Of a stretch of DNA of 48,179 bases, positions 32,019 to 36,702 are shown one piece after another (the first letter of the stretch is position 1; each line of letters begins with the position of its first letter). The notes under the pieces were generated by a model. The model made no database searches and was not told where the DNA came from. It worked only from the letters and a program-made list of their open reading frames with translations. The DNA is from Deltaproteobacteria bacterium (GTDB lineage Bacteria; Myxococcota_A; UBA9160; SZUA-336), in contig VGRW01000022.1 in assembly GCA_016875225.1 (NCBI GenBank), forward strand, positions 1-48,179. Reading direction: 5' to 3'. The translations under genes and the position numbers were made by a program.

Positions 32019-33227
32019 ATGGACCTTCGCCTGGGAGAGAAATACGAGGCGTTCCGCAGCGAGGTTCGCGCCTTTCTGCGCGAGCACTGGCCACTGCGCG
32101 GCGCCGACGCGCAGCTTGCACCGGAGCGGCAGGAGAAGCTCTTCCGCGAGCGCGCGCTCGCGCGCGGCTACGTGTACCGGGGCTTTCCGCGCCTCTACGG
32201 GGGATCCGAGCAGGCGCCGGATGCGCTGGAGGACATGATCCTCGACCAGGAGTTCCGCACCGCCGGCGCGCCGCGCGACATCCGCGGCATCGGGCCTGCG
32301 ATGCTCGCTCCGACTCTTCTCGACTGCGGTAGCGAAGAGCAGCGCATACGCTTCATTCCGCCCACGCTGCGCGGTGACCTGCGCTGGTGTCAGGGGTACA
32401 GCGAGCCGGGAGCGGGGAGCGATCTCGCGGCGCTCTCCAGCCGCGCGGTTCTGGACGGCGACAGCTGGAGGATCGACGGCCACAAGATCTGGACCAGCGA
32501 AGCGCAGTCCGCCGACTACATGTTCGGCCTGTTCCGGACCGAGCCCGACGCTCCCAAGCACGCGGGCATCTCCTATCTGCTGATCGACATGCGCTCGAAG
32601 GGGATCGAGGTGCGTCCGCTGCGGCAGATGACCGGCGGCGCGGATTTCAACGAGGTCTTCTTCAGCGACGTGCGCATCCCGGCCGATTCGATCGTCGGGC
32701 GGCGCGGCGAGGGTTGGAAGGTCTCGCGCTCGACGCTGAAGCACGAGCGCAACTTGATTGGCGACCCGCGCTACCTGCGCAATTCCTTCGATTCGCTCGT
32801 GGAGCTCGCGCGGCGGTCGCAGAGAAACGGCCGTCCCGCACTCGAGGACTCGAGCGTGCGCCAGCGGCTCGCCGAGATCGAGGGCTACGTCTGCAGTCAG
32901 GAGTACTCCGGTCAGCGCCAGTTCTCGGCCGCGCTGCGCGGCCAGGAGCTCGCGACGCTGCTTCCGATCCTGATGAACAAACTCTACTCGACCGACGCGA
33001 TGCAGCGGATCACGCGCCTCGCCTTCGACCTGCTCGGCGGCGACGGCCTGGTCGCGCCGGTGGCCGAGGAGTACGGGATGGCCTCGCAGCTGCGCACCTC
33101 GGGCGGCTGGGTCGCTCAGTACATGTTCGCGATCGCGAACTCGATCGCGGGCGGCGCTTCGAACATCCAGCGCAACATCATCGGCGAGCGCGGACTCGGG
33201 CTGCCGAGAGATCCGCGCGCGAAGTAG
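32019..33227 (+). CDS. Acyl-CoA dehydrogenase, large-type subunit
   Basis: 402-residue member of the same family. The central Y-S-E-P-G-A-G-S-D-L-A-A-L segment (acyl/flavin binding) and I-W-T-S near it are clear. The C-terminus is A-G-G-A-S-N-I-Q-R-N-I-I-G-E-R: the family's E-I-Q is N-I-Q, and the glutamate of Y-E-G is absent, as in heteromeric FadE partners. It probably forms a complex with the upstream subunit. Its last 50 bases overlap the convergent end of the apbE gene (33178-33227). Confidence 0.86.
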   Translation: MDLRLGEKYEAFRSEVRAFLREHWPLRGADAQLAPERQEKLFRERALARGYVYRGFPRLYGGSEQAPDALEDMILDQEFRTAGAPRDIRGIGPAMLAPTLLDCGSEEQRIRFIPPTLRGDLRWCQGYSEPGAGSDLAALSSRAVLDGDSWRIDGHKIWTSEAQSADYMFGLFRTEPDAPKHAGISYLLIDMRSKGIEVRPLRQMTGGADFNEVFFSDVRIPADSIVGRRGEGWKVSRSTLKHERNLIGDPRYLRNSFDSLVELARRSQRNGRPALEDSSVRQRLAEIEGYVCSQEYSGQRQFSAALRGQELATLLPILMNKLYSTDAMQRITRLAFDLLGGDGLVAPVAEEYGMASQLRTSGGWVAQYMFAIANSIAGGASNIQRNIIGERGLGLPRDPRAK

Positions 33228-34275
33228 GGCTCGCGCTCGCGGCCGCGCCGGGCCAGTCGGGCGAGAATCGGGTCTCCCGGGTCCAGCCCGAGGTCTGCCA
33301 GCTCGCGCCGCTCTCGTCGATCAGGATGCCTTCGGCATCCGGCAGCGATTCGAGCAGCTCGATCCCGTCGCTCTCGCCCAGGATCAGCAGCGCCTTCGAG
33401 AGCGCCTCTGCGCGCGCGCCGTCCGCCGCCAGCGCCGCCGCGACACGCGCGCGTGTCAGCGGCTCTCCCGTTCTGGGATCGATCACGTGGCCGTAGCGAC
33501 GCCCCGCGATCTCGGCGTACTGGCCGAGGCTCCCGGAGACCGAGATCGAGCGGTCGTCGAGCTGCGCGGTTCCCGCGAAGCCCCCGGAGGCGTCACCGAG
33601 CAGGATGCCCCAGCCGTCCCAGCCCACGGGCTTCCCGAGCGCGCAGATGCTGCTCTGGCCGAACGCGAGCAGCGCGCGGGAGATGCCGGCGTCGCGCAAC
33701 TTCTCGGCCAGGCGGTCGAGCGTCCATCCTTTCGCGATCCCGCCGAGGTCGAGCATCGCGCCCGAGTGCCGGAGCTCCACCGTGCTCGCGGACCGATCGA
33801 CCCCGACCCCCGCGGCGCCGACGCGGGACCGGGCGGTCGCCAGAGCCTCGGCCGAGGGCAGTTTTCCCGCGCGTTCGGCCTCGAGCCAGAGCGCGACCAG
33901 CGGGCCGATCGTCACGTCGAACGCGCCGCGGGTGAGCGCGGTGTACCCGATCGAGAGCTCCGTGAGATCGGCGAGGGGTGCCGCGACCGGGATCGGACCC
34001 GAGCCCGCGGCGCGGTTCAGCCGCGACAGATCGCTCGTCTCGTCGTGGCGCGAGAACATTCGCTCGAGCCGCGCGACCTCCGCGAAGAGCTCGGAGAGCT
34101 GTGCTTCGCCGCGCTCGCGTTCGGACACGCAGAGGCTGATCTCGAGGACGGTGCCCATCAGGTACCGGCCGTCGGAGACGGTCACGGGACAGAGCTGCTC
34201 CGGCTCCTCGTGCGGCGACGGACGCGCGCAGCCGGAGAGCGCCACGAGGGCGATCGCGGCCGCGAGTCGCCTCAA
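33178..34275 (-). CDS. apbE: ApbE-type FAD:protein FMN transferase, lipoprotein
   Basis: 365-residue periplasmic lipoprotein (lipobox L-S-G-C, Cys16) that moves FMN from FAD onto a Thr or Ser of target proteins. The family's Gly-Met start strand M-G-T-V-L-E-I, the L-D-L-G-G-I-A-K-G-W flavin loop and H-V-I-D-P-R-T-G catalytic region are present. The start is TTG 34275, overlapping the upstream membrane gene stop (TTGA), giving a proper signal peptide; a longer reading has no signal. The end of the coding region runs 50 bases into the convergent acyl-CoA dehydrogenase. Target is most likely the FMN-binding protein two genes up. Confidence 0.9.
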   Translation of the reverse strand: MRRLAAAIALVALSGCARPSPHEEPEQLCPVTVSDGRYLMGTVLEISLCVSERERGEAQLSELFAEVARLERMFSRHDETSDLSRLNRAAGSGPIPVAAPLADLTELSIGYTALTRGAFDVTIGPLVALWLEAERAGKLPSAEALATARSRVGAAGVGVDRSASTVELRHSGAMLDLGGIAKGWTLDRLAEKLRDAGISRALLAFGQSSICALGKPVGWDGWGILLGDASGGFAGTAQLDDRSISVSGSLGQYAEIAGRRYGHVIDPRTGEPLTRARVAAALAADGARAEALSKALLILGESDGIELLESLPDAEGILIDESGASWQTSGWTRETRFSPDWPGAAASASPTSRADLSAARVRARR

Positions 34276-34775
34276 TCCTCTCCGCTCCGATAGCGATCGT
34301 TCGTGCCGCGAAACGCCGACCAGAGCGAGAGCCCGATCAGTGCGGCCAGGCTGGTCTGCAGGGCGAGAAATCCCGCGATCTTCGCCCAGGCGAAGTGCGG
34401 GGACGCGAAGCGGACCAACCAGCCCGAGCCCTCGTCGACCAGCGCCGACACGAATGGCAGTGCGATCATCCACGCCTTGGCGCGATTGGCGAGCGGCACG
34501 AAGAGCACCAGGTGCGTGAGCACGAGCAGAAGCATTCCCATCGCGAAGAGATGGAAGTGACTGACCTCGAGCAGCCCCGCGTAACTTCGCGGCTCGCGGA
34601 ACTGCTCCTCCGAGCCGAGGTAGTGCGCGACCACGGACTCCGGAGACAGCCCCATCCGGTCGAAGTAGAGCAGGGCATTGGAGACCCAGAGAAGTGCCAC
34701 GTAGAGCGAGTAGAGCGCGATGATCACCTGGAGCAGGCGATTGCGGTTCATCTCTCCGGTGACCACGAACCTCAA
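34272..34775 (-). CDS. Four-helix membrane protein, His-rich, in flavinylation operon
   Basis: 167 residues with four hydrophobic helices. Helix 2 carries E-V-S-H-F-H-L-F-A-M-G and, 13 residues after the second His, L-T-H-L; another His sits before helix 4 (S-P-H-F). Two His 13 residues apart in one helix can coordinate b-type hemes in four-helix bundles, so a quinol/heme conduit is thinkable but unproven. TTG 34775 is chosen because GGAG lies 6 bases upstream; ATG 34751 is a shorter alternative. Overlaps apbE as TTGA, and lies 12 bases after the FMN-binding gene. No family recognised. Confidence 0.6.
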   Translation of the reverse strand: MRFVVTGEMNRNRLLQVIIALYSLYVALLWVSNALLYFDRMGLSPESVVAHYLGSEEQFREPRSYAGLLEVSHFHLFAMGMLLLVLTHLVLFVPLANRAKAWMIALPFVSALVDEGSGWLVRFASPHFAWAKIAGFLALQTSLAALIGLSLWSAFRGTNDRYRSGED

Positions 34776-34787
34776 CTGGCGCTCCGG

Positions 34788-35360
34788 CTACTCGGCTGGA
34801 TTCTGGCTCTCGAACAGGACCTGATATAGCGCGAGCGCGGTGCGGACGCTGCGCGTCACGGCGTGCGACGACAGGGTCGCCCCGGCGATGCTGTGGATTC
34901 CTCGCTTCAGGTGGAGATCCGGTCCGAGCTGCCGGCTCTCGATTCCCGCGAGCCAGCGCGCGGATGGCTGGTACTCGGTCGGCTCGTGGAACGCGAGGAT
35001 GCGCAGCGAACGCACCGTGCCGTCCGGGGCGATCACGACCAGGAGCGCCTCCGGCAGCGTGCGCACGTTGCGTACGTCGATCACTGCAGCGCCGAGCAGC
35101 CGATCCGCGCGATACGCCAGATAGAGCGTCCAGATCTGCCGCTCGAGCGGAGCGGCCGCGAGCTCCTCGATCGACCGAGCCTGGTCTTCGGTCAGGACGA
35201 AGCTCTTCTCCTCGATCCGATCGGCGTCGGCGAAGGCTTCGCGAAGCGCTTCCTGCTTGCTCGCGTACACCGTCGCGCGTGCCTGCGGGACGGCCAGCGC
35301 AGAGAGCAGGGCGAACGCGGCGCAGCCGGCGAGCGCTCTAGAAAATGAGACCGAAGCCAA
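34788..35360 (-). CDS. Periplasmic FMN-binding domain protein, predicted flavinylated
   Basis: 190 residues. Signal peptide with cleavage near A-R-A-T (residue 29/30). The C-terminal half resembles the FMN_bind domain of NqrC/RnfG-type proteins: R-L-L-G-A-A-V-I-D, R-S-L-R-I-L-A-F-H-E-P and the attachment motif A-G-A-T-L-S-S, with Thr162 as likely covalent FMN site. Start TTG 35360 overlaps the porin end by 23 bases. The partner ApbE is encoded two genes on. An extracytoplasmic electron carrier is the natural reading. Confidence 0.82.
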   Translation of the reverse strand: MASVSFSRALAGCAAFALLSALAVPQARATVYASKQEALREAFADADRIEEKSFVLTEDQARSIEELAAAPLERQIWTLYLAYRADRLLGAAVIDVRNVRTLPEALLVVIAPDGTVRSLRILAFHEPTEYQPSARWLAGIESRQLGPDLHLKRGIHSIAGATLSSHAVTRSVRTALALYQVLFESQNPAE

Positions 35361-36687
35361 GGCTCACCTCGTCACGGCTGCTCTGCGCGAAGTCGTCGAC
35401 CTTGCGGTAGTCGAGCTTCACGACCACGTTCGGGATCGGCTTGAACTGCAGACCCGGGATGTAGATGCGTTGCTTGTAGGCGCGATTCGCGCTGAATCCG
35501 CTCGGCACGTCGTTCTGCGTGTCGACGTACTCGAAGCGGAAGAACGGCTCGAGCGACATCTCGGAGCCGGGGAAGAACAGCGGAACGATGTCGTAGGCGA
35601 TCTCTCCGTAGCCGCCGATCATGCGGCGCGCGACCACTGCGTTGCTGGCGCCGGACGCGGTCAGCAGGTTCGAAAGAGCTCCCGCGTCGGCGACGTGCGC
35701 CTGGGTCCAGAGAGCGCGCGCGGTGAGCGCCTGCCAGCGGTACTCGCCGTGCACCTCCCAGATCGTCGTGCGCGCGTCGGGAAGCGAGACGTCGGAGCCG
35801 GCGATCTCGATGTCCTGGTCCTGCCCGGAGTTGCCGGAGTAGAACGAGCTGCCGACCCGCATGCCCTCGAACAAGTCGAGGTCGAGGCGGCCGACCAGCG
35901 CGAGATCGTTCGCGATCGCCTCGCTTCCGCTCTGCCGGCCGCTGCGCAGCCCGCTGGACCTGAAGTCACTGGCGACCATGCCGTTCACCGCGTAGACCCG
36001 GTAGCTGAGCCGCTCGCCCAGGTTGCCGAAGATGCCGAGCCCGTTCTCGCGCCAGGTCGACGGGATGATCACGCGCTCCGGCGTGGGGCGGAACGTCGAG
36101 TAGTAGAACGGAGGCTCGTGGAACTCGTTCACGAAGCCCATCGGGATCAGGACCTCGCCGGCGCGGATGTTGAGCTCGGGCATGAGCAGGAAATCCAGCG
36201 TCGCGAACTCCACACTCACGGAGCCGTTCTCCGCCGTGGTGCCGTGTTCGAACTCGATCTCGGTGTTGAAGACGATCCAGTCGTTGAACTTGTAGCCGAG
36301 GTAGGCGACGACCCTCGTCATGTCCGCCTCGTCGTCGGCTCCCGAGTCCCGGCGCCGGTAGTAACCCTCCGCGTAGCCGCCGATCGAGAGGCCACGCGCG
36401 ATGCCGTACACCTTCGAGGCGGCGGGACCCAGACCGTACTGGCTCTCCAGTCCGCCGGCAGGCTCGGGCGCCGCGACCTGCGTGCGCAGCGTCTCGAGCT
36501 CGGTCACGACCACGCCGAGCTTCCGCTTGAGCTCGGCGATCTCGTCGTCGCGCGCGATCTCGCGGTCGCTCGACTCCTGCGCCCCGCCCGTCGAGGCCCA
36601 CGACACGCCCAGGAGCAGGATCAGTGCCGGACCATGAACCCACCGCTTCGGAAATCCCACGACGCCCTCCGCCATTCGAGACGACAC
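35338..36687 (-). CDS. Outer-membrane beta-barrel porin with N-terminal coiled coil
   Basis: 449 residues from GTG 36687, or 445 from ATG 36675. A signal peptide (hydrophobic G-P-A-L-I-L-L-L-G-V-S-W, cleavage near G-G-A-Q) is followed by a short coiled coil (D-D-E-I-A-E-L-K-R-K-L), then alternating amphipathic strands with many aromatic girdle residues and a terminal Phe, the sign of a BAM-assembled barrel. This architecture is that of phosphate-selective or carbohydrate-type porins; the cargo is unknown. It leads the operon porin, FMN-bind, membrane protein, ApbE. Confidence 0.85.
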   Translation of the reverse strand: MSSRMAEGVVGFPKRWVHGPALILLLGVSWASTGGAQESSDREIARDDEIAELKRKLGVVVTELETLRTQVAAPEPAGGLESQYGLGPAASKVYGIARGLSIGGYAEGYYRRRDSGADDEADMTRVVAYLGYKFNDWIVFNTEIEFEHGTTAENGSVSVEFATLDFLLMPELNIRAGEVLIPMGFVNEFHEPPFYYSTFRPTPERVIIPSTWRENGLGIFGNLGERLSYRVYAVNGMVASDFRSSGLRSGRQSGSEAIANDLALVGRLDLDLFEGMRVGSSFYSGNSGQDQDIEIAGSDVSLPDARTTIWEVHGEYRWQALTARALWTQAHVADAGALSNLLTASGASNAVVARRMIGGYGEIAYDIVPLFFPGSEMSLEPFFRFEYVDTQNDVPSGFSANRAYKQRIYIPGLQFKPIPNVVVKLDYRKVDDFAQSSRDEVSLGFGLIF

Positions 36688-36702
36688 TGATAATCGCTCT
36701 CA
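36688..36702. promoter_or_regulatory. Fur-box-like sequence upstream of the porin/ApbE operon
   Basis: TGATAATCGCTCTCA matches the 7-1-7 Fur core (TGATAATnATTATCA): left half 7/7, right half 4/7. It touches the porin start region, a position where a repressor would block initiation. A single moderate match in a GC-rich genome has some weight because it is AT-rich locally. Iron regulation is inference. Confidence 0.35.

Follow-up and report, generated by a model that had tools for sequence, protein, structure and literature searches.

A run of four minus-strand genes in the 48,179-nt stretch analysed here (hereafter the window), which is part of contig VGRW01000022.1 (C22) of the 3.87-Mb draft genome of a Deltaproteobacteria bacterium, encodes a porin, a secreted FMN_bind protein, a four-helix membrane protein and an ApbE lipoprotein. 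There is good support for the prediction that these genes work together as a dedicated module for extracytoplasmic flavin electron transfer: the genome holds a single FMN_bind gene and a single ApbE gene, the FMN_bind protein carries a flavinylation motif, the genes are kept adjacent, and the membrane protein is homologous to heme c-bearing proteins of MtrAB and oxidase operons. We consider it probable that the module is controlled by Fur and reduces ferric iron in the periplasm for reductive iron assimilation, with the four-helix protein representing a new type of electron-transfer protein in the membrane. The operon contains the following features:

36688..36702, minus strand: Fur-box-like palindrome TGAGAGCGATTATCA, found by consensus scan at the operon head just before the porin gene
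35338..36687, minus strand: outer-membrane porin with signal peptide, predicted coiled coil at about residues 43-72 and 16-strand barrel
34788..35360, minus strand: secreted FMN_bind protein with motif A-G-A-T-L-S, identified by PF04205, a profile match to RnfG and a motif kept in relatives
34875..34877, minus strand: codon of Thr162, the predicted covalent flavin mononucleotide (FMN) site, from the motif position
34272..34775, minus strand: four-helix inner-membrane protein of an unnamed family with invariant E70, H73, H75, H88, E115, W119 and K132
33178..34275, minus strand: ApbE lipoprotein (flavin adenine dinucleotide:protein FMN transferase), identified by PF02424 and translationally coupled by TTGA

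A preliminary description of this DNA had placed the four genes in close succession, and they do overlap or nearly abut. The FMN_bind gene begins within the 3′ end of the porin gene and leaves a gap of 12 bases to the membrane-protein gene, and the ApbE start codon lies within a TTGA that it shares with the stop codon of the membrane-protein gene. The gene products named in that description were all recovered. The secreted FMN_bind protein scored 26.5 bits against PF04205 (curated cut-off 22), and its family profile matched RnfG in the PDB (9eri_G, 9e-8). The proposed attachment site A-G-A-T-L-S conforms to GA[T/S]x[S/T], with Thr162 (codon 34877-34875) as the predicted site of covalent flavin; most relatives carry GA(T/S)xS and a minority GSTxS. 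The ApbE protein matched PF02424 at 2e-59 and contains an export signal and the motifs MGT, GGIAKG and H-x-I-D-P-R-x-G. Its open frame extends to 34473, and the lipoprotein start is the TTG at 34275, followed by an LSGC lipobox. Because the genome encodes FMN_bind and ApbE once each, there is one evident substrate for this ApbE. In the operon-linked ApbE proteins, including that of the window, Glu often replaces the Asp that normally serves as metal ligand in the ADA(L/W)STAL motif, and GQSS is seen where the common GG motif stands, marking a distinct ApbE subfamily.

The porin frame (35338-36687) probably starts at GTG 36660, with GGAGG ahead of the start codon, and its product ends in Phe. 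It had no Pfam match above cut-off. In the predicted structure an N-terminal helix precedes a 16-strand barrel, the fold of general outer-membrane porins, and Foldseek matched it to OmpC/OmpU (E ~1e-12) and OprO (E ~1e-11), in agreement with the barrel porin proposed earlier.

The membrane protein was modeled with helices at residues 7-40, 65-90, 97-123 and 128-165, at a mean predicted local distance difference test (pLDDT) score of 84. Sequence searches of Pfam, NCBIfam and the PDB gave chance matches only, and Foldseek with the model returned weak matches to MAPEG and four-helix-bundle proteins, none below E 0.4. The paired histidines of the earlier description are His73 and His75, and His88 is likewise invariant across the core family. 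We define here a four-helix HxH membrane family by an H-x-H on helix 2 and a Trp on helix 3, both of which are present in the window protein. Judged from positive loop residues, both termini are probably cytoplasmic, which would place Glu70, His73, His75, Glu115 and Trp119 close to the periplasm and His88 close to the cytoplasm. The conserved histidines are observed directly and may bind a heme.

To assess the conservation of the gene set we scanned a genome collection, which yielded 80 loci in Myxococcota and in Methylococcales; the relatives of the window genome in it are Myxococcota/“Deltaproteobacteria” metagenome-assembled genomes. The FMN_bind gene stands directly before the membrane-protein gene in all 79 loci with sufficient contig. 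An adjacent porin gene on the same strand was found in 42 of the 42 Myxococcota loci that hold a porin and in 17 of 27 Methylococcales loci. Of 48 Myxococcota loci, 40 have ApbE downstream as the fourth gene, and no Methylococcales locus does. Among 60 relatives, 44 have both members of the core pair (FMN_bind and membrane protein), 14 have neither and 2 have a single one, one of these at a contig edge. The neighborhood is thus conserved, and the conserved unit is the porin/FMN_bind/membrane-protein triad, with ApbE as fourth gene in Myxococcota only. That the genes are unrelated chance neighbors has next to no likelihood: nothing was found in its favor, and the adjacency is kept across two phyla, Myxococcota and the Gammaproteobacteria, at ∼50% protein identity.

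Two further arrangements were seen around the triad. In some Myxococcota (L025, L042, L049, L058, L072, L093; also L055, L059, L060 and L070) the triad faces a convergent Nqr operon whose last gene is an ApbE of its own; the Nqr subunits were identified by eye from sequence. In some methanotrophs (L074 and L097; by Pfam in L074 only) a MauG-type diheme peroxidase gene lies between the porin and FMN_bind genes. In the window the operon is flanked by genes for an acyl-CoA dehydrogenase and a divergent aminotransferase, both outside the set, and a consensus promoter scan and a plasmid search gave no match.

The palindrome TGAGAGCGATTATCA at 36688-36702 is the only site in the 48-kb window within three mismatches of the Fur consensus TGATAATNATTATCA, where 0.03 such sites are expected. 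With this box at its promoter the operon would belong to the Fur regulon, and Fur is predicted to bind there. For related loci we scored 450-base regions upstream of the porin gene with the published delta-proteobacterial consensus TGAAAATNATTTTCA (PMC545781) and took as a box any site matching at 11 or more of its 14 positions; other windows of the same loci served as controls. Such boxes were found in 32 of 37 Myxococcota regions (6 of 837 controls) and in 18 of 25 Methylococcales regions (31 of 512 controls), the latter mostly as TGAGAATGATTTGCA or TGATAATGATTTGCA; the counts come from related loci and are thus not independent. Boxes with 12 of 14 matches were present in several distant clusters too, some at the operon start. 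Directly before FMN_bind genes that are separate from the porin, Fur boxes were as a rule not found.

The same kind of box also occurs at feoB. One close relative carries TGAAAATCATTTTCA at its feoB locus (14 of 14 matches), and two relatives of the same family carry TGAGAGTCATTCTCA or TGAGAATGGTTATCA. In three loci (L043, L048, L050) feoB lies divergently beside the porin gene with the box in between, and the window genome encodes FeoB and two Fur-family genes.

Relatives of the membrane protein outside the core family reveal a second form of the scaffold. The FMN_bind gene adjoins in 16 of 16 fetched loci of distant members from other Myxococcota; Glu70, His73, His75, His88 and Trp119 (window numbering) are invariant across these and the core family. 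A Gammaproteobacteria branch keeps the HxH and the Trp and carries a CxxCH motif in the loop that joins helix 1 to helix 2, a motif found in none of the four operon proteins of the window. Profile comparison linked this branch to the core family at 97.7% probability (1.9e-12) and to an intermediate set at 98.8%. The distant members from Gammaproteobacteria number 18. Of these, 13 carry CxxCH and lack an FMN_bind neighbor within the 3-kb locus; four have His/Met-rich loops and an FMN_bind neighbor lacking the attachment motif, and lie beside a DUF4198 gene in the flanks that were read; and one has neither CxxCH nor an FMN_bind neighbor.

The CxxCH form is present in 95 of 121 Methylococcales genomes. 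In this order it is found behind genes for COX2, COX1 and diheme cytochrome c, closing the operon in L225, L229, L232, L236 and L241 (by Pfam in L229 only), which suggests that it is an unrecognized membrane electron-transfer subunit of these oxidase operons. It also lies directly behind a decaheme MtrA and an MtrB/PioB barrel in 7 (L264, L266, L268, L272-L275) of 13 loci that contain a decaheme. The fourth gene of the MtrAB locus of an electrogenic Methylobacter encodes a four-helix inner-membrane monoheme cytochrome (PMC13322032), and the equivalent arrangement of the CxxCH form lends support to a role of the scaffold in carrying electrons out of the membrane into the periplasm, with the flavoprotein seemingly standing in for the heme-c domain.

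These loci bear on a possible role in respiratory or extracellular electron transfer. In such a role, the membrane protein would send quinol electrons to the flavoprotein, and from there to an acceptor, or a shuttle, able to cross the porin, in a flavin counterpart of the MtrAB conduit. The place of the distant CxxCH homolog as the inner-membrane member of Methylococcales MtrA-MtrB loci, as in PMC13322032, speaks for this, as do its further copies behind oxidase genes. The triad operons, however, contain neither a decaheme nor an outer-membrane redox protein, their barrel is an ordinary 16-strand porin, and Fur boxes stand on the triad operons but not on those of the CxxCH form (a box with at least 12 of 14 matches was found upstream of 0 of 20 CxxCH-form genes). 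We therefore consider a respiratory role unlikely. The flavin electron-transfer part of the earlier proposal holds up well and is likely right, whereas the Fur boxes and the divergent feoB, an iron signal absent from that proposal, favor ferric reduction for uptake, and iron uptake is a better guess than respiration.

A different reading takes iron as the signal and not as the substrate. During iron shortage flavodoxin replaces ferredoxin; by analogy, the flavin version of the module might replace a heme-c membrane carrier when iron is scarce. In favor of this, CxxCH forms lack an FMN_bind neighbor within their 3-kb loci and FMN-partnered forms lack CxxCH. Many Methylococcales have one to five CxxCH copies, Methylomonas LW13 has both types, and the Fur-like control fits such a swap. 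The porin and the divergent feoB are left unexplained by it, and we regard this iron-sparing role as doubtful. There is a similarly small chance that the scaffold comes in two forms that can stand in for each other: a form carrying its own heme c, which serves respiratory or extracellular transfer, and a form that passes electrons to a covalent-flavin partner and is used under Fur control when iron is scarce, such that iron status picks heme or flavin.

The His/Met-rich branch was found beside DUF4198 and DUF3347 genes, with an FMN_bind-like protein lacking GAT (L147-L149, L151, L163-L165, L167), and is possibly a metal-handling variant. That the module of the window itself acts on a different metal, for instance copper, by way of its redox state is very improbable. 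Beyond these related four-helix genes with His/Met-rich loops, the MauG-type peroxidase in some methanotroph loci points in that direction; the His/Met-rich forms, however, branch off separately and have FMN_bind partners with no GAT motif, and the boxes before the core operons fit Fur.

We compared the module with described systems. PepSY-type flavinylation clusters set a precedent as Fur-repressed, proposed ferric reducers, with transposon data for Caulobacter (PMC8238504, PMC11870441). The PepSY-like/DUF2271/ApbE systems (PMC8238504; Caulobacter CCNA_03155-03159, PMC11870441) resemble the window module in combining ApbE, a secreted flavinylation substrate and a small membrane protein; Fur control has been reported for them, and ferric reduction in the periplasm has been proposed. 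One branch of the window family moreover adjoins DUF4198. They differ in that the window membrane protein is not PepSY, its substrate is FMN_bind and not DUF2271, and its operon includes a porin. No PF03929/PF16357 or DUF2271 match was found in 50 family members or the operon. DUF4405/FezC cytochromes are likewise small His-rich membrane proteins, and DUF4405 occurs near ApbE and is proposed as a donor to flavinylated proteins (PMC10979944). The window protein, in contrast, has no match to PF14358 (DUF4405) and carries H-x-H ... H on one helix; a profile comparison with two DUF4405 sequences gave 0.6% probability. NapH-like, MsrQ-like and DsbD proteins were also considered, with no Pfam match and no conserved Cys of the NapH and DsbD motifs.

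The CxxCH protein of loci equivalent to the Methylobacter MtrAB locus (PMC13322032) is a distant homolog of the window protein, whereas the window operon has no heme-c site, decaheme MtrA or MtrB/PioB barrel, its porin being of the OmpC/OprO type. Fur-controlled porins of Geobacter/Desulfuromonas lie behind a TGAAAATNATTTTCA box and are linked to feoB, one of them in a feoAB operon; unlike in the window, no flavoprotein or four-helix protein is reported with them in the available part of PMC545781. RnfG and NqrC share the FMN_bind fold and the flavinylation motif, but the window protein stands alone: the genome encodes no Nqr/Rnf FMN_bind subunit and the operon no partner subunits, and we did not assign it to NQR or RNF. 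The earlier description had not recognized the specific gene set, and as far as could be assessed the membrane protein falls outside the flavinylation-associated membrane classes described in the two surveys (PMC8238504, PMC10979944), which may nevertheless have listed some of these clusters as unassigned. Our literature search turned up no account of this operon, whether from methanotrophs or as a gene set responding to iron.

Taken together, we propose the following route for reductive iron assimilation, in which the electron donor, the heme, the direction of flow and iron as the substrate are what we infer. Upon iron shortage Fur repression would be lifted, and the porin would admit small ferric complexes to the periplasm. 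The four-helix inner-membrane protein would take electrons from the membrane, most likely from quinol, and pass them through a heme b or quinone site formed by Glu70, His73, His75 and Glu115/Trp119 near the periplasmic face, with His88 deeper. It would thereby reduce the FMN that ApbE is predicted to attach to the secreted FMN_bind protein at Thr162. This flavoprotein would then reduce Fe(III), and FeoB would import the resulting Fe(II).

Several observations weigh against this proposal. The window box agrees with the general consensus at 11 of 14 positions and with the delta-proteobacterial consensus at 10 of 14, the feoB region of the window genome itself has no box above 10 of 14, and linkage to feoB is limited to the three loci mentioned. 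ApbE is convergent in 7 of the 48 Myxococcota loci, where in those examined it belongs to the neighboring Nqr operon, and no Methylococcales locus has an adjacent ApbE. The porin resembles general porins and need not be specific for iron, and the candidate heme site lies in a model that has no close solved fold.

The promoter evidence from two phyla nevertheless ties the module to iron starvation. The four-helix protein is a candidate new class among the membrane proteins that feed flavinylated proteins; the proposal would explain an unnamed protein family and give the Fur-linked porin a testable role. As the triad is present in cultured methanotrophs (Methylomonas), this role should be experimentally accessible.

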